The notes under the pieces are model-generated. The model did not search any database and had not been told where the DNA came from. It saw only the letters and a program-made list of their open reading frames with translations. The position numbers and the translations under genes were made by a program. Positions 2,572 through 41,373 of a DNA stretch of 64,000 nt are shown in pieces. The first letter of the stretch is position 1. Each line of letters begins with the position of its first letter. This DNA comes from Bryobacterales bacterium. Lineage in GTDB: Bacteria; Acidobacteriota; Terriglobia; Bryobacterales; Bryobacteraceae. Location: positions 1-64,000 of the forward strand of contig PMTR01000044.1 of the NCBI GenBank assembly GCA_003167255.1, in the 5' to 3' direction.

Positions 2572-4163
2572 TGGAGAAGACAAGTCAGCGTGATGCGACC
2601 GGCCGGCACGCGTTCCTGGTGGGCGCCGGCATTCTGCTCAGCCGCCTCATCGGCTTCGTGCGGCAGCGCATCTTCTCGCGCTACTTCGGTCTCACCGATC
2701 CGGCCGACGCCTTCAACGCCGCCTTCCGCATCCCCAATCTGCTGCAAAACCTCTTCGGGGAGGGCGTGCTCTCGGCATCGTTCATCCCGGTCTACGCGCG
2801 CCTGCTGGCGGAAAATGAAGAGGAAGAGTCGGGACGCGTGGCGGGCGCGGTGGCGGCCGTTCTGGCGCTGACCACATCGGTACTGGTGCTGCTTGGCGTC
2901 TTGTTCACGCCCTTCGTGACCGATCTGGTCGCCGCCGGCTTCCATGGGGCCAAGCGCGAGCTCACCATCCGCCTGGTGCGCATTCTCTTTCCCGGCGCGG
3001 GCCTGCTGGTGCTGTCCGCCTGGTGCCTGGGGATTTTGAACAGCCATCGCAAGTTCTTCCTTTCATACACCGCGCCGGTGCTCTGGAACCTGGCGATGAT
3101 CGTGACGCTGCTGGCCTTCCGCGGCGAGCGGGAGTCATCGCTGGCAGTCACACTGGCTTGGGGTTCGGTGGTGGGAAGCGCTCTGCAGTTCGGCATACAA
3201 CTGCCGGTGGTGCTGCGTCTGGCGCGACACGTTCGTGTGCGACTGGAGACGCATCGGCCGCAGGTGCGCGAAGTGGTCCGTAACTTCGTGCCGGTCTTTA
3301 TGAGCCGCGGCGTGGTTCAGATCAGCGCCTACGTGGATGCGTGGCTGGCGAGCTGGCTGGGCATGGGCGCGGTCGCCGGGCTCACCAACGCGCAGACGCT
3401 CTACACGCTTCCCGTGAGCCTGTTCGGCATGTCGGTCTCCGCCGCCGAGTTGCCGGCCATGTCGAGCGCGCTCGGCGATCGGCAGGAAGTTGCTGGCTAT
3501 CTGCAAGCGCGGCTGAACTCCGGACTGCGCCGCATCGCATTCTTCGTGGTTCCCTCGGCGATGGCTTTCCTGGCGCTCGGCGGCGTCATCTCTTCCCTGC
3601 TATTTGAGAACGGCCGGTTCACGCACGCCGATTCGTTATACGTCTGGGGCATCGTGGCCGGCTCGGCTGTGGGCCTGCTCGCATCCACCATGGGCCGCCT
3701 CTACTCCTCCACCTATTACGCCCTGCGCGATACCCGCACGCCGCTGCGTTTCGCGCTGGTGCGCGTGGGGCTCACCACCGCGCTGGGCTATCTCTGCGCG
3801 CTGCCGTTGCCGAAATTAATCGGCATCGGTCCGCGATGGGGCGCCGCGGGCCTCACCGCGTCGGCCGGTGTCGCCGGTTGGGTCGAGTTTACGCTGCTGC
3901 GCCGCGCTCTGAACCGCCGCATCGGCCCGACTGGCCTGCCGGCGCCTTTGGTGGCAAAGTTGTGGATCTCAGCCGCTGTCGCCGCCGCTGCGGCCTGGGC
4001 TCTCAAGCTGGCCATCGGCATTCGACACCCGATGGTATACGGCGCCTGCATCCTGTGCTTGTATGGCGCTGTCTATTTCGGTGCGACCTGGCTGTTCCGC
4101 GTGGAAGAATGCGCCGGGGCGCTCCGCCGGATTATGCGCCGCCTTACCCCTTCAAGTCCTTAA
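2571..4163 (+). CDS. murJ: Lipid II flippase MurJ (MviN family)
   Basis: A 530-aa polytopic inner-membrane protein of the MATE-like MurJ family, which flips lipid-linked peptidoglycan precursor to the periplasmic side. Near the N-terminus it has the family block GILLSRLIGFVRQRIFSRYFG and PADAFNAAFRIPNLLQNLFGE (each motif spans about 20 residues), with many hydrophobic helices after it. The length fits MurJ with 14 helices. Start is GTG at 2571, whose G is also the last base of the upstream TAG stop. The last 20 bp (4144-4163) overlap a reverse-strand dapA-like 3'-end remnant, suggesting that the extreme C-terminus was rebuilt by local rearrangement. Confidence 0.95.
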   Translation: MEKTSQRDATGRHAFLVGAGILLSRLIGFVRQRIFSRYFGLTDPADAFNAAFRIPNLLQNLFGEGVLSASFIPVYARLLAENEEEESGRVAGAVAAVLALTTSVLVLLGVLFTPFVTDLVAAGFHGAKRELTIRLVRILFPGAGLLVLSAWCLGILNSHRKFFLSYTAPVLWNLAMIVTLLAFRGERESSLAVTLAWGSVVGSALQFGIQLPVVLRLARHVRVRLETHRPQVREVVRNFVPVFMSRGVVQISAYVDAWLASWLGMGAVAGLTNAQTLYTLPVSLFGMSVSAAELPAMSSALGDRQEVAGYLQARLNSGLRRIAFFVVPSAMAFLALGGVISSLLFENGRFTHADSLYVWGIVAGSAVGLLASTMGRLYSSTYYALRDTRTPLRFALVRVGLTTALGYLCALPLPKLIGIGPRWGAAGLTASAGVAGWVEFTLLRRALNRRIGPTGLPAPLVAKLWISAAVAAAAAWALKLAIGIRHPMVYGACILCLYGAVYFGATWLFRVEECAGALRRIMRRLTPSSP

Positions 4164-4191
4164 GCGCCTCTTCGATCTTGCGCTTGGCGGC
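4144..4191 (-). pseudogene. Remnant copy of a dapA 3' end (last 15 codons plus stop)
   Basis: Read on the minus strand this encodes AAKRKIEEALKDLKG followed by TAA, against AAKREIEEAFRDLKG plus TGA at the end of the intact dapA at 7305. That is 12 of 15 residues and 39 of 48 bases identical. Nothing DapA-like precedes it. Upstream on the minus strand the same frame runs open from about 4386 with one TGA at 4198-4200. It could encode a short protein starting at ATG 4344 and ending ...KLPRNAHC at that TGA, of no family I recognise. I read the tail as a leftover of a duplicated or deleted dapA paralogue rather than a functional gene. Confidence 0.55.
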
Positions 4192-5229: not shown

Positions 5230-5418
5230 CATCAGTTTAGTGATCGCTACCGTTGTTGAGGCCGGCGAGGGCTTCCTGTTGGATGGTCGGCAACCCGGAA
5301 ACAATCCACATGAACGAGATGTCGCCAAATCTGACAAATGACATCCGGGCCATTTGCTATCGTGGATTGATGCTGCCCGAGTTCAACGACGAGGGAGAAC
5401 TGCCTCATTCTCCTGATC

Positions 5419-5622
5419 ATGGACGAAGACTTTGAAGTAGATGCGGTTGCCGCGCCGGCGCAAGCCGTTTTCGATTCCGTGCGGGCCAAACTCATGTTCG
5501 AATCCGACGTCTTCTGGGCGCGAGCTTCCATCGGGAACGAAGTGCTCGATCTTTGGCTGAACACCTATCAGATTTCCAGAAGCTTTCGAAAACGCGATAT
5601 TGTGGAACTGGAGCTGCGGTGA
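5419..5622 (+). CDS. Small hypothetical protein (first of an overlapping pair)
   Basis: A 67-aa soluble protein, acidic at the N-terminus (MDEDFEVDAV) and with a compact Trp-containing C-terminal half (GNEVLDLWLNTYQISRSF). I do not recognise the family. The ATG has no good Shine-Dalgarno sequence. Its stop overlaps the GTG start of the next gene by 4 bp (GTGA at 5619-5622), the coupling typical of small two-gene modules such as toxin-antitoxin pairs. No catalytic motif of a known toxin is visible, so that idea is only a possibility. It lies inside the accessory patch between the dapA-tail copies. Confidence 0.5.
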   Translation: MDEDFEVDAVAAPAQAVFDSVRAKLMFESDVFWARASIGNEVLDLWLNTYQISRSFRKRDIVELELR

Positions 5623-5819
5623 TTCAAACCGACGACCAAATGCTGCTCGCGCAGCAATCGATCGCCAATCTGCGGAGAATCCTCCTGGAGGCGCGCCAGG
5701 TCCATTCGCGGCAGGACTACGCTCGAATGGCGGAGCCGATCCTGCTCGAAATCCAGCAACGCGAGCAGGAGATCCTCGAGTATTTGAGCAGAGACCTGGA
5801 GCAACCGATAGCGAGCTAG
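5619..5819 (+). CDS. Small helical hypothetical protein (second of an overlapping pair)
   Basis: A 66-aa protein starting at GTG 5619, four bases before the previous stop. The sequence is almost all helix-forming: LLAQQSIANLRRILLEAR, then a short loop with the HSRQDYARMAEP element, then LLEIQQREQEILEYLS, which looks like a two-helix hairpin or coiled coil. I do not recognise the family. Coupling to the upstream small gene suggests that the two products act together. The next 338 bp hold only palindromic repeats and the leader of the gene at 6158. Confidence 0.5.
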   Translation: MIQTDDQMLLAQQSIANLRRILLEARQVHSRQDYARMAEPILLEIQQREQEILEYLSRDLEQPIAS

Positions 5820-5857
5820 CGGTCTGCGTCCGAAGTCTTGCGGGTTGTCGCACGGGC

Positions 5858-6040
5858 AAACGCCGGCTGAAAGCCGGCGGTGCACCGATTGACAATCGGT
5901 GCGCAGGATACCATCATGCCCCACCAAAAACCGGCGGCAAGACCGCCGGCGCTACCAGTTGATCAGTTGATCCTTACGAAACTTGAAAATGTAGAAACTC
6001 CAAACGCCGGCTGAAAGCCGGCGGCAGCCAGGATTGGCTG
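5858..6040. repeat. Interspersed palindromic repeat cluster
   Basis: The 338-bp gap 5820-6157 is filled by hairpins: gccggctgaaagccggc at 5862-5878 and again at 6006-6022, tgcaccgattgacaatcggt at 5881-5900, ccggcggcaagaccgccgg at 5931-5949 and cagccaggattggctg at 6025-6040. A stretch with gaccgccggcgctaccagtt and later aatgtagaaactcca also occurs at 20091-20136, so both places carry the same composite element. The rest of the gap holds the leader of the following gene. Confidence 0.85.
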
Positions 6041-6157
6041 CCCCACGCCGATCCGTGGCGGTGGCAGTGGTCGTGCGCGGGCAAAGTTCTGGGAAAATAC
6101 GCTAGCTGATCCCTTTTTTCCTCAAATACTGCGTACTATATCCAGGAGGAGTCTCGG

Positions 6158-7261
6158 ATGCCGAAAAATCGCCTGTTCGTCCCTGCGTTGGCTGCGGCCG
6201 CCATTGCCTTAGTCGAAGCGCCCTATCTGGCAGCGCAGCCATACGCGCCAGCCCCGGAAACTTATTCCATAACCCAATTGAGTTCCCTGATGGGACCGAC
6301 GGTCATCGAGCGAATCTGGCGCGACGGCTCGAAAGCCGTGATCGAGCTGAGCACGCCATCTCCGGAGCCCGGGGGCAAAGCCAGCCACGTCCGCACCTTC
6401 TACGATCTGGCAACCCATACTAACGTCTCCTGGGACCCTACCAACCCCGCTCCGCAATGCGGTACTGGCACGTACGGCGGCGATTGGGGCGATCCGTTTG
6501 CTTCATCGGCGGAGATGAACGCCGACCTGGTCTCCAAAAAGGTCACGCAGTCGGGCACCGAAACCATCAACGGCATTTCCGCCAAGGTCCTCACTGCGGA
6601 CATGGGCGCGCAGGGCAAAGCCAGGGCCTGGATCGAGCCGAAGTACGGGTTGATCATGAAAGCCGAGTTTACGGCGCCGAACGCGGAGCCCCGCATCATC
6701 CTGCAGACCCAGACCGTCTCGTTCGCAAAACCGCCGGCTGCCACGTTTGCTTTACCGGCTGGATGCAGCACAACGCCCGGGGCGGCTCCTTCGGCCGATA
6801 ACGAACAGATCGCCGCCGAAACCGGCGAGCCGGCATCGAACTTCAGCAAAGCGACGGCGCCGCCGGCGACTGCCCAATCGTGCACGGTGCTGTTTCGGAT
6901 GGTTCAGAAGGGATCGATGGCCACCTTGACTGGCGGATACCAGCTCGGAATCGATCGGGACGTGGATGACCAGCATCCGGCCGACTATCAGTTTGGAACC
7001 GATGCCAGTGGTCACATGCTCGTCTCAGGAGGCCACTTGACCGAAGTGACGCGGCAAATGCAAAACGGCGTCCTGCGCATCGACAACCCCGGCAAGGAAT
7101 TCCATATTGATATTCGCGTGCCGAATGGAGGCGCAACCGCCACGCTGTATCGCCAGTGCGCCGGTCCGCAGACCACTCTGCTGCTGGTGGTGAGCAGCCT
7201 GGACAAGCTGAGCCCGGGTGACTGGTTGTGGGTGAAATCGGGGAAACAGGCGGGGCACTGA
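6158..7261 (+). CDS. Exported hypothetical protein
   Basis: A 367-aa protein with an N-terminal Sec-type signal (a basic start, a hydrophobic run with AALAAAAIALV, and likely cleavage after LAAQ near residue 27). The central part (SSLMGPTVIERIWRDGSKAV, then TETINGISAKVLTADMG and WIEPKYGLIMKAEF) resembles the beta-strand pattern of LolA-like or DUF4412-type periplasmic proteins, but this is a weak structural impression. A Pro/Ala-rich linker near residues 205-235 leads to a second beta-rich domain. The ribosome site aggagg at 6142-6147 lies well placed before the ATG. It sits next to dapA at the right edge of the accessory patch. Function unknown. Confidence 0.75.
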   Translation: MPKNRLFVPALAAAAIALVEAPYLAAQPYAPAPETYSITQLSSLMGPTVIERIWRDGSKAVIELSTPSPEPGGKASHVRTFYDLATHTNVSWDPTNPAPQCGTGTYGGDWGDPFASSAEMNADLVSKKVTQSGTETINGISAKVLTADMGAQGKARAWIEPKYGLIMKAEFTAPNAEPRIILQTQTVSFAKPPAATFALPAGCSTTPGAAPSADNEQIAAETGEPASNFSKATAPPATAQSCTVLFRMVQKGSMATLTGGYQLGIDRDVDDQHPADYQFGTDASGHMLVSGGHLTEVTRQMQNGVLRIDNPGKEFHIDIRVPNGGATATLYRQCAGPQTTLLLVVSSLDKLSPGDWLWVKSGKQAGH

Positions 7262-7304
7262 AGCTGACGTGGTTTCGGGCAAGGCGTGCCGCATTCGCCG
7301 GACT

Positions 7305-8189
7305 TCAGCCCTTCAAATCCCGAAACGCCTCTTCGATCTCGCGCTTCGCCGCTTCGGTGGGCGTGCTCAACGGCAGCCGCGGCGGCCCGCCATAGTAACC
7401 GTTCAGATCCATCGCGTACTTCAGCCCCGGAATCCCGTATTTCACCGTCACCAGCGTGGAAGCCCGCCCGATGCGGTTCTGCCAGTCCAGTCCGGCGGCG
7501 TCTTCGCGCGTGCGATATGCCTCCCAGATGGCGATGGTCGAATACGGCGCGGCGTTGGCGTAGGCCAGAATCGCCCCGCAGGCGCCCATCAGCAGCGACG
7601 GCCATAGCGTCGGCGCCGAACCCACCAGAACCTGAAAACCGTGCCTGACCTCGCGGATCAACTGCATCACTTTTTCCATGCTGCCCGAACTCTCCTTGAT
7701 GGCGATCACGTTCGGATGCTCGGAAAGCGCCACCACGGCTTCCACCGGAATGTCGACGCCCGTGGCCTGCGGCCAGTTATAAATGATGAGCGGCAGCTTC
7801 GACCGGTCCGCCACCGCGCGATAATACAACATTTGCGCGTCGGCGCGATTCACCATGTTCTTGTAATAGTGCGGCGTCCGCACCATGGCAGCTTTGTATC
7901 CCATCTCCGCGGCGCGGTTGGTCAGCGCCACGGTTTCGCGCACGCTCTCCATCCCGGTTCCGGCGATCAGCAACTTCTCCGGCGCGGCGTACTTGGCCAC
8001 CATTTCCCAAACCGCAGATTTCTCTTCGGTGGTCACCATCACACTCTCGCCGGTCGAGCCCATCACCACGTACCCGGCCAGCGACGTGCGGTTCCACTTT
8101 TCTACGTTGTGCTGCACCTTCGCGGCATAAATGTCGCCGTTATGGTCGAACGGCGTTGTAATTGGTGGGAAAATACCTTGTAGCTTCAT
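7305..8189 (-). CDS. dapA: Dihydrodipicolinate synthase (DapA) family aldolase/lyase
   Basis: A 294-aa class I aldolase-fold protein. Visible family features are GxTGE as MGSTGESVM near residue 45, the catalytic Tyr in LIIYNWP, and the Schiff-base Lys in VIAIKESSG. Canonical DapA condenses pyruvate with aspartate semialdehyde in lysine synthesis, but relatives act on other 2-oxo acids, so dapA here is a family call. The start is ATG 8189, with ggag just upstream; it is divergent from prmA across 21 bp. Its last 16 codons have a diverged copy at 4144-4191, about 3.1 kb away in the same orientation. Confidence 0.85.
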   Translation of the reverse strand: MKLQGIFPPITTPFDHNGDIYAAKVQHNVEKWNRTSLAGYVVMGSTGESVMVTTEEKSAVWEMVAKYAAPEKLLIAGTGMESVRETVALTNRAAEMGYKAAMVRTPHYYKNMVNRADAQMLYYRAVADRSKLPLIIYNWPQATGVDIPVEAVVALSEHPNVIAIKESSGSMEKVMQLIREVRHGFQVLVGSAPTLWPSLLMGACGAILAYANAAPYSTIAIWEAYRTREDAAGLDWQNRIGRASTLVTVKYGIPGLKYAMDLNGYYGGPPRLPLSTPTEAAKREIEEAFRDLKG

Positions 8190-29036: not shown

Positions 29037-30056
29037 CTATTCCAGCCCCGCGCTCTTGAACATTGCCAGAAACTGGGATTCCGTCCGCATGTCGATGGAT
29101 TGGGCCACCAGGCGGCCCTGGCGATCGAATAAAAAGCTCTTCGGGATGCCTTCCACGTAGAACGCGGTGTTGGTCTTGCGGTCCGGGTCCAGCAGGACCG
29201 GGAACGTGTAGCTCTGTTTGGTCAGAAAGCCTTCCACGGTTTCGCGCTTCTCGTCGGAAACCGCCAGAACGATGAGGCCCTTCTTCTCGAAACGCTCGTA
29301 GAGCATTTGCATGTCGGGCATTTCTTTGCGGCAGGGTGGGCACCAGGTGGCCCAGAAGTTCAGCAGAACCACGTGGCCGCGCAGAGCGTCCAGGTTGTAG
29401 ATTTTGCCGTCGAGCGCGGTGAGCGTGAAGCCGGTCTCCTGGAGCACCTGGTCCCGCAGTTCGAGCACGGCGGTGGCGGCGTCCAGAGCCGGGTCGGCGG
29501 GCGGCGGGGTGACGTGTTCGTAACGGATCAGCTTCGCGAGCTCAACATAATTGCCGGCGGCGCCTTCGGTTTCGTGAAGGGCCTGGACCAGCGCGGCGGC
29601 CACGCCGTTCAACGCTTCTTTGCCCAGATCGCCTTCGGTGGCGAGGCTTGAAAGGCTGGAAGCCAGGTTGAGTTTTTCGCGGCCGGCGGGCAGCGCGCGA
29701 ATGTCGGCAACCAGCTTGATGACCACTTTGCCGCGCTCGGCGTCGGTCGCAAGCGCCCGAATTTGGCCCATGCTCTTCTGGATGGCTGCGGATTCGGCCG
29801 AAAGCGGCGTGCGTGCCGCCGCCGCCCGCGCGGCAGCCGGAGCGGCGGCCGGATCCGAGAATTGGCTCGCCAGATCGGGATAGCGCTGCTGCAGAGCCTC
29901 TGCGGCCAGCTTGCGGAACGCCGGTCTGAGCGACTCGGGCGCTTTAGCGAACCGTTGTTCCACCCGGGCGGCGCCTTGTTTTACGGCGTCGGAATCGGCC
30001 GCGCAGACCAGGCCGGCGGTCAAAAGGCACGCGTTCAGCAGACGAAGAGAAAACAT
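29037..30056 (-). CDS. Secreted thioredoxin-fold (TlpA/ResA-like) protein with a long N-terminal domain
   Basis: A 339-aa exported protein with a signal peptide (LLNACLLTAGLVCAA, cleavage near residue 20). Residues 20-190 are helical and Ala-rich, of unknown family. Residues 200-335 are a TlpA-type redoxin: LRGHVVLLNFWATWCPPCRK with the CPPC active site, then EGIPKSFLFDRQGRLV with the cis-Pro. It should act on disulfides outside the cytoplasm. It may be the last gene of the reverse-strand run from the M20 peptidase. Confidence 0.87.
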   Translation of the reverse strand: MFSLRLLNACLLTAGLVCAADSDAVKQGAARVEQRFAKAPESLRPAFRKLAAEALQQRYPDLASQFSDPAAAPAAARAAAARTPLSAESAAIQKSMGQIRALATDAERGKVVIKLVADIRALPAGREKLNLASSLSSLATEGDLGKEALNGVAAALVQALHETEGAAGNYVELAKLIRYEHVTPPPADPALDAATAVLELRDQVLQETGFTLTALDGKIYNLDALRGHVVLLNFWATWCPPCRKEMPDMQMLYERFEKKGLIVLAVSDEKRETVEGFLTKQSYTFPVLLDPDRKTNTAFYVEGIPKSFLFDRQGRLVAQSIDMRTESQFLAMFKSAGLE

Positions 30057-30084
30057 GGGGGACTCCTGGTACGGACTATAGCAA

Positions 30085-30585
30085 CTACCGGCCGGTGGGG
30101 TCCGGCGGGTTGTTGTTGCCGCCTTCCGCCGTCTTGGTGGAACTGCTATCGTGCCTCGGGCCGAGCCCCAGGGCGATCAGCGAAAGGGAATTGATCTTAC
30201 CGTTGGAGTCGATGTTTTGCTCGGATTGGAACTTCTTAAGGGCGTCGGCGGAGGCCTGGTCCCAGGCGCCCGTGGCGGCATCCGCCGGCAGGTACCCTTT
30301 GGCTACCAGGGCGTTCTGGATTTCCCGGTAGCGGTCGGAACTGGGGGTGGCTTGCCGGTTGCGCCAGGTGGTGCGTTTGACCGGAACTTTCTTGGCGGAT
30401 TTCTTGGTGGCAGCCGTTTGGACCACGGCTCCTGTCTTTGCTTGCGCCGCTGGTTTCCTGGCGGCGGACTTCACGGCCGCTTTCTTTACCGGTGCCTTCT
30501 TTTTCGCCGCGGATGCAGGCGGCTGGAAGCCCCAGGCCAGTGCCGCCATCGACAAGGCGGCTGCGCAGGTCAGAATTGTCCGCAT
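30085..30585 (-). CDS. Exported peptidoglycan-binding-domain protein with Lys/Ala-rich linker
   Basis: A 166-aa protein: signal peptide (AALSMAALAWGFQPPASA), then residues 27-75 very rich in Lys and Ala (KKKAPVKKAAVKSAARKPAA), then a PG_binding_1-type domain (EIQNALVAKGYLPADAATG, WDQASADALKKFQSEQNI) from residue 85, and a short polar tail. The domain type binds peptidoglycan; the basic linker may contact anionic polymers. It lies 28 bp upstream of the thioredoxin-fold gene on the same strand. Confidence 0.82.
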   Translation of the reverse strand: MRTILTCAAALSMAALAWGFQPPASAAKKKAPVKKAAVKSAARKPAAQAKTGAVVQTAATKKSAKKVPVKRTTWRNRQATPSSDRYREIQNALVAKGYLPADAATGAWDQASADALKKFQSEQNIDSNGKINSLSLIALGLGPRHDSSSTKTAEGGNNNPPDPTGR

Positions 30586-30649
30586 CTTCAGTGGACTAGT
30601 GTAACAGGGGTTCAGGGTCGGAGGGGTGGGGGTGCCCTGGGGACGGCTC

Positions 30650-30710
30650 GCAAAACGGGGACTGCTACCAATTCCCGCCTTTGGAATTGGATAGCTGTCC
30701 CCGTCTTGCC
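30650..30710. repeat. 61-bp dispersed repeat with a CCAATTCC...GGAATTGG hairpin
   Basis: It begins gcaaaacggggactgctacc, has ccaattcc and ggaattgg as hairpin arms, and ends near tgtccccgtcttgcc. A copy lies at 36036-36095 with few differences. It lies in the 151-bp gap between htrA and the peptidoglycan-binding gene; no gene is seen there. Confidence 0.85.
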
Positions 30711-30736
30711 TGGCAGGACCCGGTTCGCGGAGCCGG

Positions 30737-32350
30737 TTAGCGCATCTGGTTGGGAAGAGTTCCGGGCAGGAAGACCAAAGCCCACTCGTTGCGTCTGGGG
30801 TCGTGCCGCGTCACCCGGAACATCACCGGGTCGCCCGGCTTCAAGGTGGCTTGGACCTTCTTGATATCCTCCACCGAATTGACCGGATGGCGGTTGATTT
30901 CCAGAATCAGGTCGCCACGAACCAGGCCGACGTCTTCGGCGAAAGAGCCCTGTTCGACCTCGGAGACCATCACGCCGCCCTTTTCCTTGATTCCCTGGGT
31001 CTCGCGCTGGCGGTCGGTCAGCGGGTTGATAGTCATGCCGAAGCTGACGGTGGTGCCTTCACTCTGGCTGGGAGCTTCCTGACGTCCGCCGCCAAACTCC
31101 TCGGGGAAGATCTGAGCCAGGTTCCCCACCACAACCTTGAAGTTTTCGCGTTTGCCGTCGCGTAGCACGCCGATATCCAGGCTGCTGCCGACGGGCGTGG
31201 CGGTGACGATGCCAATCAACTGGTCGCCGTCGTGAATCGTTTGACCGTTGATGGATACAATGACGTCTGCCTGCTTGATGCCGGCCTTTTCCGAAGGACC
31301 ACCGGCGGCCAGGGAGCCGACGAACACGCCTTCACTGGCGCCGCTCACTTTGAGGGCCGCGGCGGTCCGGGGATCGTCCGATTTGCTGAACGAGATGCCG
31401 ATTGAACCGCGCGTCACCTTACCGGTCTTGATGATGTCGTTGTAGACCCCCGCGGCCGTATTAATGGGAAGCGCGAATCCGATGCCTTCATAGCCGCCGG
31501 AACGCGACGCGATGGCCGTGTTGATGCCGATCACTTCGCCGCGCATGTTGAGCAGCGGACCGCCCGAATTGCCCGGGTTGATGGCTGCGTCGGTCTGTAG
31601 GAAATGCTGGAACTGCATCCGGGTGTCGCTATCCATTACGCGTCCCTTGGCGCTGATGATGCCGGCCGTGACGGTTGTGTCGAAACCGAACGGGGAACCG
31701 ATGGCCATGGCCCAATCGCCCACCTGGACGGCGTCGGAGTTGCCGATTTTGACCGGCGCAAGGTTGTGCTTGCCCTCCACGCGAATCACCGCCAGATCCG
31801 TGGGTGCATCCACGCCGATCACACGGGCGTCATACTTCTCCGGGTCGCCGGGGAATTTCACTTTGATCTTGTCGGCCTTGTCCACCACGTGATTGTTCGT
31901 CAGGATGTAGCCGGCCGCGTCCACCACCACGCCGGAGCCCAGCGCTTCGCCTCCGCGGCTGTTGGGCATCTCCGGGACGCCATTGCCAAACGGATTGCCG
32001 CCGAAGAAGTGGTTGAAGAAATCGTTCATGCCATTGTCGTCGCCCTGAGCGCCGTCGTCCGGCGTCGTCGGGCGGCGCCCCGTCCGGGTCCGCGTGGGCT
32101 GTGGTTTGTACATGACCGAGACGTTCACAACCGAGGGCGCCACCTGCTTGGCAATCTGGCTGAAGGTGTTTGACAGCTCCACCGGGCTGGGAATCACCAG
32201 CGGTGTCGCGCCGGGGGCCTGACCGTTGTCTTTGGCCGCCTTCACGCCCGAATTGATGAGCGTGCCCAGGACGATGCCGAACGACAACGTAAACAGCATC
32301 ACCGTAAACGAAAGCAACTTCTGCGTGCGTAACTTGTCAAAGAAACTCAT
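30737..32350 (-). CDS. HtrA/DegP-type periplasmic serine protease with two PDZ domains
   Basis: A 537-aa envelope protease anchored by one N-terminal helix (LLSFTVMLFTLSFGIVLGTL). The trypsin-like domain has the triad: His in ILTNNHVV near residue 150, Asp in PTDLAVIRV near 180, Ser in NPGNSGGPLLN near 253. PDZ1 (GVFVGSLAAGGPSEKAG) and PDZ2 (GVMVSEVEQGSFAEDVG) follow. A 30-residue acidic/Gly-rich insert (TPDDGAQGDDNG and the HFFGG stretch) is typical of HtrA Q-linker/LA loop. It degrades or refolds damaged proteins. It lies 10 bp after the EamA gene. Confidence 0.94.
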   Translation of the reverse strand: MSFFDKLRTQKLLSFTVMLFTLSFGIVLGTLINSGVKAAKDNGQAPGATPLVIPSPVELSNTFSQIAKQVAPSVVNVSVMYKPQPTRTRTGRRPTTPDDGAQGDDNGMNDFFNHFFGGNPFGNGVPEMPNSRGGEALGSGVVVDAAGYILTNNHVVDKADKIKVKFPGDPEKYDARVIGVDAPTDLAVIRVEGKHNLAPVKIGNSDAVQVGDWAMAIGSPFGFDTTVTAGIISAKGRVMDSDTRMQFQHFLQTDAAINPGNSGGPLLNMRGEVIGINTAIASRSGGYEGIGFALPINTAAGVYNDIIKTGKVTRGSIGISFSKSDDPRTAAALKVSGASEGVFVGSLAAGGPSEKAGIKQADVIVSINGQTIHDGDQLIGIVTATPVGSSLDIGVLRDGKRENFKVVVGNLAQIFPEEFGGGRQEAPSQSEGTTVSFGMTINPLTDRQRETQGIKEKGGVMVSEVEQGSFAEDVGLVRGDLILEINRHPVNSVEDIKKVQATLKPGDPVMFRVTRHDPRRNEWALVFLPGTLPNQMR

Positions 32351-32360
32351 GGGATATTAC

Positions 32361-33266
32361 CTATTCCTCTGCTATTGATAATGGATGCCGCCGCGGATTC
32401 AGCGGTTTCACTTCCACCAGCACAACCCCGCCCAGAATGAGAGCCGCGCCCGCGGCGGCGCGCCCTGACAGGCCCTCACCTGCAATGCAATACGACGTAA
32501 TCCAGGCCACCACCGGTTCCAGCATGTAGATCAGAGCCGTCCGTGTCGAACCGGTGTACTGCTGAGCCCACGCCTGAATCGTAAAGGCCAACGCAGTAGC
32601 CAGCAATCCTGTTATCAGTATGGCCCAGACCACCGCCGGACGCCACTCCACCCGCGGGGATTCCACCCACCAGAAGAGTGACAACGATAACAACGCGGCG
32701 ACCCCAACTTGCGCGACCGATAGTAGTTCGAAGCTCATGTGCCCGGTGAAGTGGCCCAGCGTCACGATGTACGCGGCGAACCCAAAGGCGCACAAAAGCG
32801 TCAACAGATCGCCCAGGCTCATGGAACCGGCCGCTCCTTTGAGCGTCATCAGGCCAAGCCCGGCGGTGGCCACTACCACCCCAGCCACCTCGGAAATCTG
32901 GGGTCTAACCCTATAGACGAGGGCCGCCAGCAAAGGTACCGCAATAGACGTTAATCCCGTAAGAAACGCGGAGCGGGGCGCCGTGGTGAGACGCAACCCT
33001 AGAGTTTGTAAAAGATAACCGGAGAAGAGGAAGACGCCGGCGAGAGCCCCGGCCCCCACCGCACGCCACGATCGCCGGCCTTCCCCGGTCGGCCACGCCA
33101 CTCCGCGGAACATCGCCAGCAGGGCCAGCGTGGCCAGCGAAAAGCGCAGCGCCAGGAAAAGCAGCGGGGAGACGTGGAGCAGCGCGGATTTCACCAGGAC
33201 GAAGGTGGCCCCCCAGACGATCGTGTTCAAAACCAGGGCGGCTTCGGCGGCCCGGCGGCGGTTCAC
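32361..33266 (-). CDS. EamA/DMT-family transporter
   Basis: A 301-aa inner-membrane protein with ten predicted helices in two EamA repeats: the first starts LVLNTIVWGATFVLVKSAL, the second near LGDLLTLLCAFGFAAYIVTL. The conserved GATF segment and the second-repeat RTALIYMLEPVVAWI are family typical. The substrate (amino acids, metabolites or drugs) cannot be told. GTG 33266 overlaps the M20 peptidase stop by 4 bp, and htrA follows after 10 bp, indicating co-transcription. Confidence 0.88.
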   Translation of the reverse strand: MNRRRAAEAALVLNTIVWGATFVLVKSALLHVSPLLFLALRFSLATLALLAMFRGVAWPTGEGRRSWRAVGAGALAGVFLFSGYLLQTLGLRLTTAPRSAFLTGLTSIAVPLLAALVYRVRPQISEVAGVVVATAGLGLMTLKGAAGSMSLGDLLTLLCAFGFAAYIVTLGHFTGHMSFELLSVAQVGVAALLSLSLFWWVESPRVEWRPAVVWAILITGLLATALAFTIQAWAQQYTGSTRTALIYMLEPVVAWITSYCIAGEGLSGRAAAGAALILGGVVLVEVKPLNPRRHPLSIAEE

Positions 33267-34501
33267 TTGCCGGTCCCGGAGTCTGCCGTGGCGTCGGCCG
33301 GGCTGCTGCGCAGCAACAGCAGAAGCGTCAGGAAGATCCGCTTCAGGCCCAGATCCCGGCCTTCCGGGCGAAACCATTCTTGCGTGGTGTGGGCGCCGCC
33401 GCCGATGCCCCCCGCCCCGATCGCGATCGCCGGAATTCCCAGCGAAAGCGGAATGTTGGCGTCCGTCGAGGAACAATCCAGATGGGAGCGGACGCCCAGG
33501 TGGGCATCCACCGCCCGCACGTATTGCAGAATGGCCGAGTCTTCCGGAAGCGCCGCGGCGGGCCGCGATCCAATCTCCTTGAGCTTGCTCGTCACTTTAC
33601 CGCCGGTGGCACGCTGGTTTTCCAGATCGCGCGCGCGATCCACCGCGGCAGCCAGCAGATCCACCAGTTCGTCCATCTTCTCGTTGCTCTCGGAACGGAT
33701 GTCGACTTTGGCGCGCGCCAGTTGCGGGATGGCGTTCACGCTGGAGCCGCCCTCGATGAGTCCCACGTTAACCGCGGATTTCGGCGTCCCTTCAATCCGC
33801 GTTTCGGCGAAGAAGGCTACCGCCCGGCACAGCGCATGCAGCGGATTGCCGACGCCAAAATCGCTCCAGCTATGGCCGCCGGGTCCGCTGAAGGCGATTT
33901 CGAAACGGCGGCTGCCCAGGGCGCGCGTCGTAATGTGGTCGGTATTGGCGCCGTCCACCACCACGAAGGCCTCGATCGGGCGGCCGAGTGGCGGCTGTTT
34001 ACAAAGCTGGCGCATTCCCAGCAGGTTGCCTTCGCCCTCTTCGCCCACATTGGCCACCAGCAGCAGGTTGCCGGAAAGCCCGGGAATGCGGGCACCGTTT
34101 TTCCAGACGCGCGCCACCGCCAGCAGCGCCGCCAGGCCGGCGCCGTTGTCGGAGACGCCCGGTCCGCAGAAGCGGCCGTCGGCATCCACGTAGATGTCTT
34201 CCTTGCTGCGCGGCGCGATCACCGTGTCGAGGTGCGCGCTCAGAGCCACGTAGGGGCCTTCCCCCTGGGCCGCGATCACGTTGCCCGTACGGTCGATGGA
34301 CGTATTCCACCCGAGGGACCGCAACTGCTCCTGGAACCACGCGGCGCGGTCCTGTTCCAGGAAAGTGGGGGCGGGGACGCGGCAGAGCTGCAGGTGGATT
34401 TCGTTGATCCACTGCTTCTCGCGAGTGAACCACTGCAAGCATTCGCGAACGCCGCGGTCGCCGGCGAGTTCACTAATGTTGATTCCGGCGGCTGCGGGCA
34501 T
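33263..34501 (-). CDS. M20-family metallopeptidase
   Basis: A 412-aa dizinc exopeptidase of the M20 family (tripeptidase/PepT-like). Metal and catalytic residues are visible: His and Asp in VALSAHLDTVI near residue 86, Asp in GPGVSDNGAGLAALLAV near 118, the Glu pair in ANVGEEGEGNLLG near 150, Asp in VVVDGANTDH, and the late His in GGGAHTTQEW. The lid/dimerisation domain has FSGPGGHSWSDFG. No signal peptide. The ATG 34501 is chosen over ATG 34561, which adds an unrelated basic tail. Substrate unknown. Confidence 0.88.
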   Translation of the reverse strand: MPAAAGINISELAGDRGVRECLQWFTREKQWINEIHLQLCRVPAPTFLEQDRAAWFQEQLRSLGWNTSIDRTGNVIAAQGEGPYVALSAHLDTVIAPRSKEDIYVDADGRFCGPGVSDNGAGLAALLAVARVWKNGARIPGLSGNLLLVANVGEEGEGNLLGMRQLCKQPPLGRPIEAFVVVDGANTDHITTRALGSRRFEIAFSGPGGHSWSDFGVGNPLHALCRAVAFFAETRIEGTPKSAVNVGLIEGGSSVNAIPQLARAKVDIRSESNEKMDELVDLLAAAVDRARDLENQRATGGKVTSKLKEIGSRPAAALPEDSAILQYVRAVDAHLGVRSHLDCSSTDANIPLSLGIPAIAIGAGGIGGGAHTTQEWFRPEGRDLGLKRIFLTLLLLLRSSPADATADSGTGK

Positions 34502-35967: not shown

Positions 35968-36035
35968 GAACCTGCTATTGTTTCGGAAATGCTCCGATGC
36001 CGCAACCCCAAAGAGCACGCCCGCCGCAAAACGCC

Positions 36036-36095
36036 GCAAAACGGGGACTGCTACCAATTCCCGCTTTTGGAATTGGTAGCTGTACCCGCTTTGCC
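36036..36095. repeat. 60-bp dispersed repeat with a CCAATTCC...GGAATTGG hairpin
   Basis: Second copy of the repeat at 30650-30710: gcaaaacggggactgctacc, hairpin ccaattcc/ggaattgg and a tgtacccgctttgcc end. It lies upstream of the MFS gene and of the ParD-type gene, between divergent transcripts. Confidence 0.85.
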
Positions 36096-36124: not shown

Positions 36125-36178
36125 TTAAGAATCGTGCTAGCCTGCATGGCAGGAGAAACCCAAACGAGGAGGCACCCA

Positions 36179-36448
36179 TTGACAACCGTCACCATCTCCC
36201 TGCCCGAATCCCTGAAGGCATTCATCGACCGCCAACTGGCCACCAAGGGCTACGGCAATGTGAGCGAGTATTTCCGCTCGCTGTTACGAGCTGCCCAGAA
36301 GGGAGAAGAAGACGCCCGGCTGGAGGCGCTGCTGCTGGAAGGCCTGGGGAGCAGAGCCGACATTCCGTTGATGCCGGAGTTCTGGAAAGACCTCAAAGCC
36401 GAAGCGCGTGACATCGCCGCGAAGCACCAGGCACGGAAGCGGCCGTGA
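36179..36448 (+). CDS. ParD/CopG-type antitoxin without an adjacent toxin
   Basis: An 89-aa protein with the ribbon-helix-helix start TTVTISLPESLKAFIDRQLA, GYGNVSEYFRSLLRAAQKGE, and a C-terminal tail (MPEFWKDLKAEARDIAAK) normally used to bind ParE. Start is TTG 36179, with gaggagg at 36166-36172. Downstream, where a ParE toxin gene would be expected, is an HTH gene instead. It may be an orphan regulator or the survivor of a broken TA operon. Confidence 0.82.
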   Translation: MTTVTISLPESLKAFIDRQLATKGYGNVSEYFRSLLRAAQKGEEDARLEALLLEGLGSRADIPLMPEFWKDLKAEARDIAAKHQARKRP

Positions 36449-36489
36449 ATCCGGTGATTCTACCGTGAATTGTTGGAAAGGAGGAAGTG

Positions 36490-36801
36490 ATGCGAGCGAC
36501 AAAAGGCAGTGAGAACGTTTTCGCCGACTGCGGATTTCCGCCCGCCGAAGCGGAAAACCTCCGCATCCGCGCTAAGATGATGATGGCTCTGACCGGCTAT
36601 ATCCAGGAGAGAAGGATCACCCAATCTCGCGCGGCCAGAATCATGGGTGTATCGCAGCCGCGAATCTCGGATCTGGTACGCGGCAAGATCGGGCTATTCA
36701 CAATCGACACACTGGTTAACATGGTGACCGCCGCCGGTCTGAAGGTGGATGTAGACATCACTGCCGGCAGGCCGAAAGCGAAGACCAAGCAGGTTGCATG
36801 A
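36490..36801 (+). CDS. XRE/HigA-type helix-turn-helix protein
   Basis: A 103-aa protein of the short HigA2-like class: AKMMMALTGYIQERRITQSR, then the recognition helix in AARIMGVSQPRISDLVRGKI and LFTIDTLVNMVTAAGLKVDV. Such proteins are antitoxins of RelE/HigB-like toxins, but no toxin gene lies beside it. The tail is basic (RPKAKTKQVA). Its stop overlaps the ATG of the large heme-motif gene by 4 bp, so translation may be coupled. Ribosome site aaaggagg lies just before the ATG. Confidence 0.82.
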   Translation: MRATKGSENVFADCGFPPAEAENLRIRAKMMMALTGYIQERRITQSRAARIMGVSQPRISDLVRGKIGLFTIDTLVNMVTAAGLKVDVDITAGRPKAKTKQVA

Positions 36802-39263
36802 CTCGCACATCCGCTGCCTGGGCAATGCTGACCCGGCGTGGTATCCGCGCGCTGGTTGTGGTGGCGCTGTCCGCCGCGGCAGGTGTGCCGCAACAGCCGG
36901 CAACCATCACCGTCGATTACCCCGCGTCCGGATCCGTCTTTCCGCCGGACTTCACGCCGCCGACCTTTCTCTGGCGGGATAGCCAACAGGGCGTTACCGA
37001 GTGGAGCATCGAGGTGACCTTCGCCGCCGGTCCGTCCCCCATTCGGCTGACATCTCGCGGCGAGCCAATGTCCGTGGGTGAAATCGACCCCCGCGCCGTC
37101 GGCCCCACCAACCAACTGCCGCAACTCACCCCCGAGCAGGCCGCCGCACATACCTGGATGCCCGGCAGCGAGGTCTGGGAAATCATCAAGAAGAATTCCG
37201 TGGCGGGCGCGGCCACCATTCGGTTCACCGGGCACCGTCCAGATGGGCAGGTCGTGTCCCGGGGGCAGGTCGTCCTCAGGACGTCCCAGGACCCGGTGGG
37301 TGCGCCGATCTTTTACCGCGACGTCCCGCTGATGCCGTCCGAAACCGAGCCCGGCGTGGTCAAGCCGCTGGCTCCACGCGCCGTGCCGCTGATTGCGTGG
37401 CGCGTGCGCAACGTCTCCGACCCCGCCAGCCGCGTGGTCATGACCGGTATCCACAGTTGCGCCAACTGCCACTCTTTTTCGCGGGACGGAAAGACCATGG
37501 GCATGGACCTGGATGGCCCGCGTAACGACAAGGGGTTGTACGCCATCGTGCCGGTCGAGCCGCGCATGACCATCCGCCAGGAGAACGTCGTCGAGTGGAG
37601 CACCTTCCGCGGAAAACTCGGCGGCGCCCTCCGCGTGGGGTTCATGTCCCAGGTCTCGCCAGACGGACGGCGGGTAGTGACTACCATCAACGACCTCGGC
37701 GAAGCACAATCCGACTACCAGCGGCGGAGGAATCCGCAAGATCTGGTCCGCAACTACTACGTGGCGAACTTCAAAGACTATCGCTTCCTTCAGGTGTTCT
37801 ATCCGACGCGCGGAATCCTCGCGTGGTACGACCCCGCTGCCGGTCACCTGCAAGCTCTGCCCGGCGCGGATGACGCTGGCTATGTACACACCGGCGCGGT
37901 CTGGAGTCCCGACGGAAAATACATCGTGTTCGGGCGCGCCGCGGCTAAGGATGCTTACCCGCCGGGCGCCGGAATCGCCGAATCCGCCAACGATGCCAAC
38001 GAGACCCAGATCCGCTACGACCTCTATCGGATCCCGTTCAACGAGGGTAGAGGCGGCCGCGCGGAGCCGATCGCCGGCGCCTCGTCGAACGGCATGAGCA
38101 ATAGCTTTCCGAAGGTCTCGCCCGACGGCCGATGGATCGTCTACGTGCAGGCCCGCAACGGACAGTTGATGCGGCCCGACAGCCAACTGTACATTGTCCC
38201 GGCGGCAGGCGGAGAGGCGCGGCGCATGAACTGCAACACTCGCCTCATGAATTCCTGGCACAGTTTTTCGCCGAACGGCCGCTGGCTGGTTTTTTCGTCG
38301 AAAAGCCGGTCTCCGTATACGCAGATGTTTTTGACCCACCTGGATGCCGACGGCAACGACAGCCCGGCGATCCTGATCGAAAACTCCACCGCTGCAAACC
38401 GGGCCGTGAACATTCCGGAATTTGTCAATATTCCGCCGGATGGTCTCATGAACATTGACGCTCCGGTTACCGATTATTACCGCGTGATCGACACGGCCAC
38501 CGACTTGGCGAAGGAGCACAAGTCCGCCGAAGCGGCGGCCGAGTGGCGGAAGGCCGTGGCAATGAATCCGAAGGAAGCCTCGAACCATTTCAACCTGGGC
38601 GCCGCGCTCTTCGATGCAGGCAGCGTAGTGGAAGCCATCGCCCAATACAACCAGGCCCTGAACCTGAGCCCCGAGTACGCGGAGGCGCACACCAATCTGG
38701 CAGCGGCCCTGGCCAGGAACGGGAGGCTGGACGACGCCATCGCCCACTTCACCAAGGCCCTGGAGTTGAATCCGGCGAACACCAATGCGCGCAGCAACCT
38801 GGGTACCGTGCTGGCGCAGGCCGGAAGGACCGGGGAGGCCATCCCTTACTTGCGCGCCGCCGCCGCGGAAAGACCCCGGGATGCCGAGGCACAGACCAAT
38901 CTCGGTCTCGCCCTGGCGCTCGCCCGGCGGTTCGATGAAGCAATTGCATGCCTGCAGGAGGTTGTGACGGCCAGTCCGGATTCCTTCGAATACCGATTCA
39001 ACCTGGGCCGGGTTCTGGCGGCCGGAGGGCATTTTGCGGAGGCCGTCCCGCACTTCGAGCAGGCAGTCCGGTTGTCTCACGCGCGGGAACCGCAGATCCT
39101 TGACATGCTGGCCTACGTATATGCCGAGACGGGCCGTTTCCAGGAGGCGGCCCAGGCGGCGCGGCAGGCGCTGGAAGTCGCCGGGCCGGGCAATACTCAG
39201 TTCGTCGATACTTTGAAATCCCGCATCTCCTACTACGAATCGCGGATTCCAAAGGCCAAGTAA
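36798..39263 (+). CDS. Exported PD40 beta-propeller/TPR protein with a CxxCH heme motif
   Basis: An 821-aa secreted or periplasmic protein: N-terminal basic/hydrophobic signal (RRGIRALVVVALSAAAGVP), an Ig-like segment to residue 200, then CANCH at residues 221-225, a single c-type heme attachment motif, followed by PD40/TolB-like propeller blades (QVSPDGRRVVTTIND, WSPDGKYIVFGRA, FPKVSPDGRWIVYVQ, FSPNGRWLVFSS) and at least six TPRs from residue 570. Proteins combining TolB blades with CANCHSFS-type motifs occur in Bacteroidota and Acidobacteriota; function is unknown. It overlaps the HTH gene by 4 bp. Confidence 0.85.
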   Translation: MTRTSAAWAMLTRRGIRALVVVALSAAAGVPQQPATITVDYPASGSVFPPDFTPPTFLWRDSQQGVTEWSIEVTFAAGPSPIRLTSRGEPMSVGEIDPRAVGPTNQLPQLTPEQAAAHTWMPGSEVWEIIKKNSVAGAATIRFTGHRPDGQVVSRGQVVLRTSQDPVGAPIFYRDVPLMPSETEPGVVKPLAPRAVPLIAWRVRNVSDPASRVVMTGIHSCANCHSFSRDGKTMGMDLDGPRNDKGLYAIVPVEPRMTIRQENVVEWSTFRGKLGGALRVGFMSQVSPDGRRVVTTINDLGEAQSDYQRRRNPQDLVRNYYVANFKDYRFLQVFYPTRGILAWYDPAAGHLQALPGADDAGYVHTGAVWSPDGKYIVFGRAAAKDAYPPGAGIAESANDANETQIRYDLYRIPFNEGRGGRAEPIAGASSNGMSNSFPKVSPDGRWIVYVQARNGQLMRPDSQLYIVPAAGGEARRMNCNTRLMNSWHSFSPNGRWLVFSSKSRSPYTQMFLTHLDADGNDSPAILIENSTAANRAVNIPEFVNIPPDGLMNIDAPVTDYYRVIDTATDLAKEHKSAEAAAEWRKAVAMNPKEASNHFNLGAALFDAGSVVEAIAQYNQALNLSPEYAEAHTNLAAALARNGRLDDAIAHFTKALELNPANTNARSNLGTVLAQAGRTGEAIPYLRAAAAERPRDAEAQTNLGLALALARRFDEAIACLQEVVTASPDSFEYRFNLGRVLAAGGHFAEAVPHFEQAVRLSHAREPQILDMLAYVYAETGRFQEAAQAARQALEVAGPGNTQFVDTLKSRISYYESRIPKAK

Positions 39264-39269
39264 CAAACG

Positions 39270-39318
39270 CTATTTGCCGGCTTCCGCGGCCGGCGCCAGG
39301 CGCTCGCCGGCTTTGAGC
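39270..39318 (-). pseudogene. Remnant copy of an efflux-adaptor gene 3' end
   Basis: Minus-strand reading gives LKAGERLAPAAEAGK then TAG, against LKAGDRVMPAAEAGK and TAG at the end of the adaptor gene at 40138. 44 of 49 bases are identical (39270-39318 against 40138-40186). No adaptor-like sequence precedes the fragment. A MazEF-type pair lies between the two copies. I read it as a duplicated 3' end or the stump of a lost paralogue. Confidence 0.65.
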
Positions 39319-39374
39319 AGCAGTCGCCGGGAATGGGGCCAAAGAGATCGTCTTCTGGTAGGATATTCGGTAGG

Positions 39375-39668
39375 ATGATCAGTCGTACCGCTCACCCCAA
39401 AAAGCAGCAGCATCGGAAGGCCAAGAAGAGCTATTCGCTGTCGCACGAGTCGGTTCAGTTTCTCGAAGCGATGCGGAGGAAGCGCCACGCCTCATCCATT
39501 TCCTCGATCCTCGAAGACATCCTGCAAGCTGCCCGGCGCCAGCAGGAAAGGGCCGCTGTTGAAAATGCGGTAGCCGGCTACTACAGCTCGCTTTCCCGCG
39601 CGGAAACGGAAGAACTGGCTGTGTGGGGTGAATTCGCGATGGGCGAGTTTCCGACCGAGGCGGCTTGA
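39375..39668 (+). CDS. MazE/CopG-like antitoxin
   Basis: A 97-aa basic protein, MISRTAHPKKQQHRKAKKSY at the start, then a helical region with a possible ribbon-helix-helix (SYSLSHESVQFLEAMRRKRH, SSISSILEDILQAARRQQE) and an acidic C-terminal tail (LSRAETEELAVWGEFAMGE) suitable for toxin binding. It directly precedes a MazF-type toxin gene with no gap, which identifies it as the antitoxin. ATG 39375 follows a weak purine-rich site. Confidence 0.8.
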   Translation: MISRTAHPKKQQHRKAKKSYSLSHESVQFLEAMRRKRHASSISSILEDILQAARRQQERAAVENAVAGYYSSLSRAETEELAVWGEFAMGEFPTEAA

Positions 39669-40037
39669 GTGGCGGCGGCACAGCGCACACCGCTTCGCGG
39701 CGAGATTTGGTTCGTGCAACTCCATGTCGACCCACCCGAAAAGGGCAGGCGCCCGGTAGTAATTGTTTCGCTCGACGCCAGGAATCGTCACGAGCGGGCC
39801 GATACAGTCTTAGTAGTTCCGTTGACAACCAGCATCCACAAGGAATCTCCTACCCACATTTTTCTGCCGGCAGGCGAAACTGGACTTCGGACCGATTCAG
39901 CGGCGAAAGCCGAGGACATCACCGTGGTTCGGAAACTGAGTTTGATTGAGCCTCGATCCCGCCTGCGCCGACTCAGTGACAGGCGAATCTGCGAGCTCGC
40001 TGCAAAGGTCGGTATGGCCATGGGGTGTGCAAGCTAA
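39669..40037 (+). CDS. MazF/PemK-type endoribonuclease toxin
   Basis: A 122-aa protein of the MazF fold. Visible are PLRGEIWFVQLHVDPPEKGR, RPVVIVSLDARNRHERADTV with the conserved RPVV(I/V)VS motif, VLVVPLTTSIHK, and AKAEDITVVRKLSLIEP near the end, the family's (K/R)xxDixT(V/I)xKxxL pattern. It should cleave single-stranded RNA. Start is GTG 39669, immediately after the antitoxin stop. The pair lies between two copies of an adaptor gene 3' end. Confidence 0.9.
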   Translation: MAAAQRTPLRGEIWFVQLHVDPPEKGRRPVVIVSLDARNRHERADTVLVVPLTTSIHKESPTHIFLPAGETGLRTDSAAKAEDITVVRKLSLIEPRSRLRRLSDRRICELAAKVGMAMGCAS

Positions 40038-40082
40038 GTACGTGGTTTCAGAAGTTCGCCGACGTATCCAAGAGGCGCTTGC

Positions 40083-40125
40083 TAACGCGCGCGGCTCCGA
40101 TGCGAGCCGCGACCGTGAGGGAGCT
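40083..40125. repeat. Hairpin repeat with gagccgcgaccgtgagggag
   Basis: cgcggctc (40090-40097) pairs with gagccgcg (40104-40111) around gatgc; the following bases to 40123 match 34565-34584 with one difference. It occupies the 100-bp gap between the MazF-type gene and the adaptor 3' end. Confidence 0.75.
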
Positions 40126-40137
40126 GCAAGGTCGACC

Positions 40138-41373
40138 CTATTTGCCGGCTTCCGCGGCGGGCATCACGCGGTCGCCGGCTTTGAGCGGAATATCCGGCGG
40201 CATCGCGACCGAATCCCCTTCCGCCAGCCCATCTGTCACTTGAATGCGTGTGACGCTCGACGCCCCGGTCTTTACCGTGCGTCGCTCCAGCGTGTCGCCC
40301 TTCAGCACAAGGACGTAGTCGCCCGTCGCGTCATGGTGCAGCGTCTCTTTGGGAATGGCAAGAGCGCGCTCGACCACCGCCGTGCGGATCAGGGCATCCA
40401 CGTTGGTTCCTGGAACCAGTTCTCGGCCGGGATTCTCGATCATGCAGATCACCTGTCCCACCTGGCGCGAGCCCAGGGTTTCGATGGTGGTCGGCATCTG
40501 CTCCACCACGCCTTGCCACTGCTTGCCTGCAAGCGCCTGCCACGTGATTGTGACGGGCTGCTGTTTGGCGACGCGCCCCAGCTCCGGCTCATCGATGTAG
40601 ACCCGCACGCGGAGGCGGTTCATGAGGCCGATGTTTGCCACCAGGTCGCCCGGGTTGAGGTAAGCGCCGGGGCGAATCGCCAGGCCGTAGACCACGCCGC
40701 CGATGGGTGCGCGGATTTCGCTTTGCGCCGCCTGCCGCTTCACCAGCTCCAGCGCGGCTTGCGCATCCTGCAGCCGCGCACGGGCGCCGGCCACATCGGG
40801 AGCCGTGGCCGGCATCGTGCGGCGCCTCTTTTCAAGCCCTGCGATCTGCACGTGCAGTTGTTCCACTTTATTCCCGGCGGCCGTCACTTCCGCGCCGGTG
40901 GCGGCGTGTTGGGCGGCCAGGCGTTCGAGTGCGGCGCGCTCCCGCTCGGCCTGCTGGAGCTCCACGTTAGCGCGTGCCAGGCCGTTATCGATTTCGGTGA
41001 GTTCGGCCGGCTTGGGGCCGCTTTCAAGCGACGCCAGGTTGGCTTGCGCCTCGGAAACTTTGGCTTCGGCGGCGTCGAGCGAGGCCTTGGCGGAAGGATC
41101 GGTAAGGGTGGCAAGCACCGCCCCTTTTTCGACGGAGCGCCCTTCCGCCACATTGACCTCGCCGGCCATGCCCTTGGTTTCGGCATGCACGGCCCGCCAC
41201 TCGAACGGTTCCACCTTTCCGTTGGTGTTGAGATTGCTAATCAGCGTTTCACTGTGGACGTGAGCGAAGCCCACGGTGGGCGGCGCATTCTTGCGCAGGA
41301 TGCCCCAGGTAATCAGCCCCGCAGCAGCCGCCAGCAGCACGAACAACAGTAACTTCCTCAAAATGATCTCCAC
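40138..41373 (-). CDS. HlyD/RND-type periplasmic adaptor (membrane fusion) protein
   Basis: A 411-aa protein with one N-terminal helix (RKLLLFVLLAAAAGLITWG), the beta-barrel/lipoyl halves (GEVNVAEGRSVEKGAVLATL and IRAPIGGVVYGLAIRPGAYL) and a long alpha hairpin rich in Ala/Glu between residues 90 and 200. Such adaptors connect an inner-membrane pump to an outer-membrane channel; no permease gene lies next to it. Start is uncertain: GTG 41373 gives a normal N-terminus. Its last 16 codons are duplicated at 39270-39318. Confidence 0.85.
   Translation of the reverse strand: MEIILRKLLLFVLLAAAAGLITWGILRKNAPPTVGFAHVHSETLISNLNTNGKVEPFEWRAVHAETKGMAGEVNVAEGRSVEKGAVLATLTDPSAKASLDAAEAKVSEAQANLASLESGPKPAELTEIDNGLARANVELQQAERERAALERLAAQHAATGAEVTAAGNKVEQLHVQIAGLEKRRRTMPATAPDVAGARARLQDAQAALELVKRQAAQSEIRAPIGGVVYGLAIRPGAYLNPGDLVANIGLMNRLRVRVYIDEPELGRVAKQQPVTITWQALAGKQWQGVVEQMPTTIETLGSRQVGQVICMIENPGRELVPGTNVDALIRTAVVERALAIPKETLHHDATGDYVLVLKGDTLERRTVKTGASSVTRIQVTDGLAEGDSVAMPPDIPLKAGDRVMPAAEAGK

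Follow-up and report, generated by a model that had tools for sequence, protein, structure and literature searches.

How a toxin-antitoxin (TA) pair can reach new chromosomal sites when no transposon carries it is the question addressed by a small scar in a 64,000-nt stretch of Bryobacterales contig PMTR01000044.1 (hereafter, the window), where the end of an efflux adaptor gene occurs twice, with a predicted MazF-type TA pair between the two copies. TA pairs are highly mobile, and how they become fixed is not understood (PMC2654758). A sequence-only reading of the window had noticed the duplicated gene tail and, together with a second case at dapA, had proposed a common mechanism by which small modules are captured at gene ends. 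Based on the comparisons described below, we consider it rather probable that the 816-bp MazEF segment was inserted behind the adaptor stop codon and that about 50 bp of the gene end were duplicated, one copy remaining on each side. The features involved are listed in Table 1.

Table 1. Features of the adaptor site and of the second example of a duplicated gene tail, in window coordinates
Feature	Position	Strand	Basis or remark
Putative non-functional dapA tail copy, at the murJ end	4145..4191	-	second example in the window
Predicted functional dapA 3′ end, partner of 4145-4191	7306..7352	-	DHDPS PF00701
TPR/PD40-repeat gene	36798..39263	+	convergent neighbour; its end is the left border of the insertion site
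Left repeat: putative non-functional copy of the last 16 adaptor codons and stop, in the ancestral downstream context	39267..39318	-	alignment, neutral substitution pattern
Predicted inserted segment, 816 bp	39319..40134	.	absent at the matching site in same-genus G001
Predicted antitoxin gene, 97 aa from the likely start (ORF opens at 39333)	39375..39668	+	no Pfam or NCBIfam match
MazF/PemK-family toxin gene, 122 aa	39669..40037	+	PF02452, E 6.9e-19
MITE-like repeat, left 91 bp, right side truncated	40034..40124	+	alignment of full-length copies
Right repeat: predicted functional adaptor 3′ end	40135..40186	-	alignments, substitution pattern
Efflux periplasmic adaptor gene, HlyD/RND membrane-fusion family, intact	40138..41370	-	PF16576, PF13437; TIGR01730, E 2.8e-46

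Direct alignment bore out that the last 16 codons of the adaptor gene recur with the same stop: 39270-39318 and 40138-40186 are identical at 44 of 49 positions in the same orientation, and both copies end in CTA, which is TAG on the minus strand. The full repeat extends to 52 bp (39267-39318 and 40135-40186; 46/52, 88%), with a start-to-start spacing of 868 bp and 816 bp in between, and the similarity breaks off sharply beyond it. A chance repeat was ruled out by the E value of 5e-13 obtained in a self comparison over 12 kb and by a search of the 7.35-Mb genome, in which the only other significant match to the tail was the adaptor gene itself; the same search returned no further genomic copy that could have served as a source. 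The proposed identity of the gene as an efflux adaptor was also confirmed, by the HlyD/RND membrane-fusion profiles, and its orthologue in the same-genus genome G001 shares 93% of its amino acids.

The segment between the repeats carries a predicted MazF-type TA pair. The toxin scored 68.5 bits with PF02452 against a curated cut-off of 23.1, which places it in the MazF/PemK family as had been read from the sequence (E 7e-19), but the supposed MazE matched no Pfam or NCBIfam family, neither PF04014 nor any other antitoxin model. Its identity is proposed because of its position and its conserved pairing with the toxin; it is kept beside the toxin in six other genomes (37-63% aa), and toxin orthologues were found at other loci in seven genomes (60-93% aa). 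According to the ORFs and profile searches, the 816 bp contain neither a transposase nor an integrase, only the two genes and a repeat fragment. This fragment corresponds to the hairpin repeat that had been noticed between the tails. It is indeed present, but it is not an inherent part of the structure. Its family, MITE-like and unrelated, has about 40 copies dispersed through the genome, and the window copy lacks its right side; on these grounds, the repeat was ruled out as the mobile unit. Full-length members measure about 140 bp and have imperfect terminal repeats, CTAAGTACGTGGTTTCA and TGAAACGGTGTACTTAG, and an internal hairpin. Their left end commonly overlaps the stop codon of a gene (CTAAG, CTTAG or CTAG; loci L091-L128 and the window copy); the mazF stop codon in the window is supplied by the repeat, and mazF of G001 ends in CTAG with no repeat. 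An Rfam scan of the window returned rRNA only. A dispersed hairpin repeat with 11 copies in the sample surveyed below also occurs at 30649-30710 and 36035-36095 of the window, about 5.4 kb apart and 92% identical, with a ParD-like gene closely downstream of the second copy.

An insert-free version of the adaptor site was found in G001, the Bryobacterales isolate palsa_349 (PLZX01000263.1), which is the single same-genus genome compared and a draft MAG (82% complete, 6% contamination). At the matching site there, 7 bp separate the end of the TPR gene from the adaptor with its single tail; both flanks are continuous, and there is no insert. One 52-bp stretch (G001/L018 1495-1546) aligns to both copies of the adaptor tail, its left context matching that of the left copy and its right context that of the right copy, and the last 126 bp of the TPR gene, 90% identical in G001, adjoin this single tail. 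Most of the TPR gene is missing from G001, together with the pair upstream of it in the window, a ParD-like antitoxin gene followed by an HTH_37/HigA-like gene (36134-36801), beside which no toxin was recognised. The draft state of G001 and the loss of most of the TPR gene count against the proposed insertion.

This arrangement bears on the possibility that the adaptor gene was once duplicated in tandem, that all but the last 49 bp of the second copy disappeared and that the TA pair entered the decaying region. A partial gene copy of several hundred bp does exist at one other site, ctaA-ctaB. Nevertheless, upstream of these 49 bp the far copy showed no similarity to the adaptor in pairwise comparisons, the matching site in G001 holds no trace of a second adaptor, and several independent sites would each have had to retain just a short tail. 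Such a history is thus highly improbable, and the single tail of the sister genome, flush with the next gene, disfavours in general the remnants of tandem paralogues that the earlier reading had named as the alternative to its proposal. In seven other genera that have the adaptor, no MazEF pair lies next to it.

G001 does possess the MazEF pair, located between argS and a TldD-like gene and 86% identical to that of the window at the nucleotide level, with the shared part limited to 39356-40036. The argS-tldD interval of the genome under study (G000) is without MazEF; it contains a different hairpin repeat and no clean scar of a vacated site. Further sites are occupied by the pair in other genera, and at six other MazEF loci there are no flanking repeats of at least 28 bp except low-complexity or paralogous ones, a result that counts against the proposed insertion. 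The divergence of MazEF between the two genomes at 4-fold sites (35/105, 0.33) is near that of the neighbouring genes (0.25-0.31), which indicates that the pair was probably present in the common ancestor of both genomes and moved later in one or both. The two genomes could also have acquired related copies separately. The reciprocal presence and absence at the two loci suggests a relocation of MazEF within the genus.

The identity of the working gene end was approached by counting substitutions by codon position in six tail pairs from five sites, each with a relative for comparison (dapA was scored in both genomes). Those specific to the far copies numbered 13, 11 and 14 at codon positions 1, 2 and 3, an even distribution as expected without a coding role, compared with 1, 5 and 9 in the gene copies and 7, 5 and 26 in the sister or comparison genes, where the third position is favoured. 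On this basis, the adaptor-side copy is predicted to be the working gene end, and the copy at 39270 would be non-functional and neutrally decayed. The far copy may be either a decayed duplicate or a decayed displaced native tail, as the codon-position count fits both.

The timing of the event is a separate matter. The insert might be ancestral to the genus, G001 having lost MazEF by recombination between the two tails, a history that would alter the timing and not the nature of the event. The repeats permit such a loss, and the adaptor gene copy is the closest to the sister gene in raw counts (4 differences versus 5 and 7). Against an ancestral insert, the far copy has fewer neutral changes than that age would require, although this is a weak argument (4 changes in 49 bp, where at least 6.9 would be expected if it were older than the species split; P ~0.18), and G001 keeps its own copy of the pair at the other locus. 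We regard an ancestral insert as unlikely. Since a loss in G001 by recombination between the repeats is possible, the polarity at the adaptor site depends on this weak dating, from which we infer an insertion in the G000 lineage.

In the insertion that we propose, the segment would enter directly behind the adaptor stop codon, and about 50 bp of the gene end would be duplicated. The adaptor would stay intact because its own tail copy reaches the stop codon, whereas the far copy would keep the old downstream context and decay neutrally. On the gene side, similarity to that old context ends no more than 3 nt from the adaptor stop codon, a border that this model leaves unaccounted for. The joining step would most likely take place at a break or stall behind the gene, where repair or template switching would paste in a stray fragment and copy the gene tail a second time. 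We found no sign of an active capture by gene ends, as had been suggested, and the simplest reading is a target duplication on insertion of the module.

Genomic islands are known to integrate at the 3′ ends of genes (tRNA genes, icd, guaA and others), with the duplicated end on both sides and the gene left intact; they encode an integrase and return to one and the same target gene. The adaptor site resembles them in that the gene end is duplicated on both sides and the gene is kept whole. By analogy, site-specific or homologous recombination could have brought in a circle carrying an adaptor tail, so that the gene was made whole again and its native tail moved to the far side, with the integrase since lost or acting in trans. 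An integrative element of this kind would explain that the repeat ends at the stop codon and that 3′ ends are used exclusively, its displaced native tail would likewise decay neutrally, and one VapC-type locus (L213) does lie between two tRNA-like 3′ ends. However, the target genes differ from case to case (adaptor, dapA, murA, ctaA and others), so one integrase cannot serve all of them, and the insertions share neither a target gene nor a core. Additionally, no integrase gene is present in the insert, and the listed cargos of the other tail pairs show no evident integrase or recombinase. The duplicated target varies several-fold in length, from about 47 to 575 bp, and at murA it includes a whole neighbouring gene. 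In comparison with the sister species, the gene copies differ at no more positions than the far copies (4 versus 7, 13 versus 20, 9 versus 15 and 14 versus 14 differences, respectively), and a source of tail-carrying circles would be needed. Taken with these points, an integrative element appears improbable. At L213 itself (1416-2240; G000:C21), a VapC-type toxin and its partner lie between two 47-bp copies that, read by eye, resemble a tRNA 3′ end; ARAGORN found no complete tRNA there.

The second example in the window, at dapA, proved to be real, with 83% identity between 4145-4191 and 7306-7352. The two cases share their anatomy, as the common pattern proposed for them implies, but they are of unequal age: the dapA duplication is older, since it is common to both species of the genus, with different cargo. 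In the window, the dapA cargo (4145-7352) comprises a nucleotidyltransferase-like gene and other genes, and in G001 (L079 314-1579) it includes a broken PIN-domain gene with a small partner. At ctaA-ctaB (C16:20001 block, 29359-34066; G000:C16 ~49.4-54.1 kb), about 4.3 kb separates the two genes, whose functions are neighbouring ones, and there are three copies of the ctaA tail: ctaA itself, a further 3′ part of ctaA, about 330 bp long, and a third tail. Here too, both species have duplicated tails with different cargo. The dapA and ctaA-ctaB sites are older duplications whose contents have turned over.

A younger event was identified at murA (C49:115534-116802 of G000, L259), where a HicAB pair is inserted behind the gene and the duplicated target of about 575 bp takes in the murA tail and an entire rhodanese gene. 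The two rhodanese copies are 98.6% alike, compared with 91% to G001, which places this event after the species split; G001 and G002 have single copies and no insert. What looks like a border at the murA stop codon is produced not by the duplication but by hairpin repeats that differ between the two copies. Elsewhere, a 126-bp tail pair encloses 4.2 kb, including a MazE-like/ParE-like pair, and the corresponding site in G001 has a single tail. The description of the cargo as small modules holds at the adaptor, but some tail pairs enclose 3-4 kb of ordinary genes.

The frequency of such structures was assessed in 882 kb (~12% of the genome), a sample that was picked regardless of the pattern and included the window; an additional 262 kb around MITE copies was surveyed. 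We considered low-copy direct repeats within 6 kb of each other and not inside one gene, taking those within 10 nt of a stop or start codon as flush. The enrichment that the sequence-only reading had proposed to look for was found: 9 of 29 near direct repeats were flush with a stop codon, compared with 0.89 expected from 2000 position shuffles (maximum 5), although these nine include the two cases of the original reading, two pairs from the one murA event and one possible paralogue (C107:20512), so that about five new independent cases remain. None of the 29 was flush with a start codon (0.85 expected from the same shuffles). Except at the doubtful C107:20512, the copy lies downstream of the gene in every case. 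Two further tail pairs, C107:91083 and C120:70888, were dropped as dispersed repeats, and one between two ssb genes in C188 as paralogues.

The survival of tails and not of heads can be attributed to selection, which would favour copies whose upstream gene remains whole and under its own promoter. The position of the border, 0-9 nt from the stop codon in most cases, goes beyond what random breakpoints together with such selection would give and is a point against the proposed model. The existence of a recurring mechanism behind the tail duplications is largely supported by the survey.

The association with TA genes was evaluated with a set of PIN, ParE and HicA toxin loci plus the window MazF, in which direct repeats spanning the toxin were sought. 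They were found at 8 of 53 TA loci and at 16 of 600 random positions (Fisher one-sided P 3e-4), a difference to be read knowing that the hypothesis arose from the same data and that the eight include L227, with paralogous antitoxins, and L213, with the tRNA-like 3′ ends. Two other positives were set aside, L250 because its repeat occurs 76 times in the sample and L240 because it lies at a contig end. The enrichment of flanking direct repeats at TA loci is regarded as likely. Judging from these sites, the adaptor insertion appears to be one of several in the genome, often with TA cargo.

Events of this kind have already been described in Helicobacter. Nobusato et al. 2000 (Gene 259:99-108) introduced the term "insertion with long target duplication" for events involving restriction-modification genes, initially in Helicobacter pylori, as cited in PMC1643837, PMC3874152 and PMC3031569, and the variable direct repeats involved are in the order of 100 bp (PMC3874152). 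As far as these citing accounts describe them, such insertions share with the adaptor site a small selfish complex, no identifiable mobile element and direct repeats of the target sequence, and they were likewise recognised against a related genome lacking the insert. Similarly, the 52-bp repeat with 88% identity is well above the lengths of transposon target duplications, the related genome has a single copy, and the insert is without transposase or integrase. The accounts cited differ from our case in the cargo, which here consists of TA pairs and other genes instead of restriction-modification genes (a TA pair at the adaptor site), and in the host, here an Acidobacteriota; additionally, our case shows a strong bias for gene 3′ ends, with repeat borders at the stop codon. 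If the difference in cargo is treated as non-defining, the adaptor-site insertion would fit this class by its anatomy and by the insert-free site. Relocated genes flanked by direct repeats of the target site, mostly of genic sequence, have also been reported in a eukaryote, among the transposed genes of Arabidopsis, for which a circle and homologous reinsertion were proposed (PMC2869330).

A broader reading would be that insertion in this lineage is directed to gene ends by a process that sets down TA or other cargo right after a stop codon and copies 45-130 bp of the gene tail, with no recombinase encoded by an element; the border at the stop codon would then stem from the mechanism and not only from selection. 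We hold this reading to be quite doubtful. If confirmed across genomes, the stop-codon borders would narrow the mechanism. The adaptor site makes TA mobility testable, through a datable scar, an insert-free site, a pair found at two loci in sister species and a signature that can be counted genome-wide. TA modules thus seem capable of movement even when they carry no transposon themselves.
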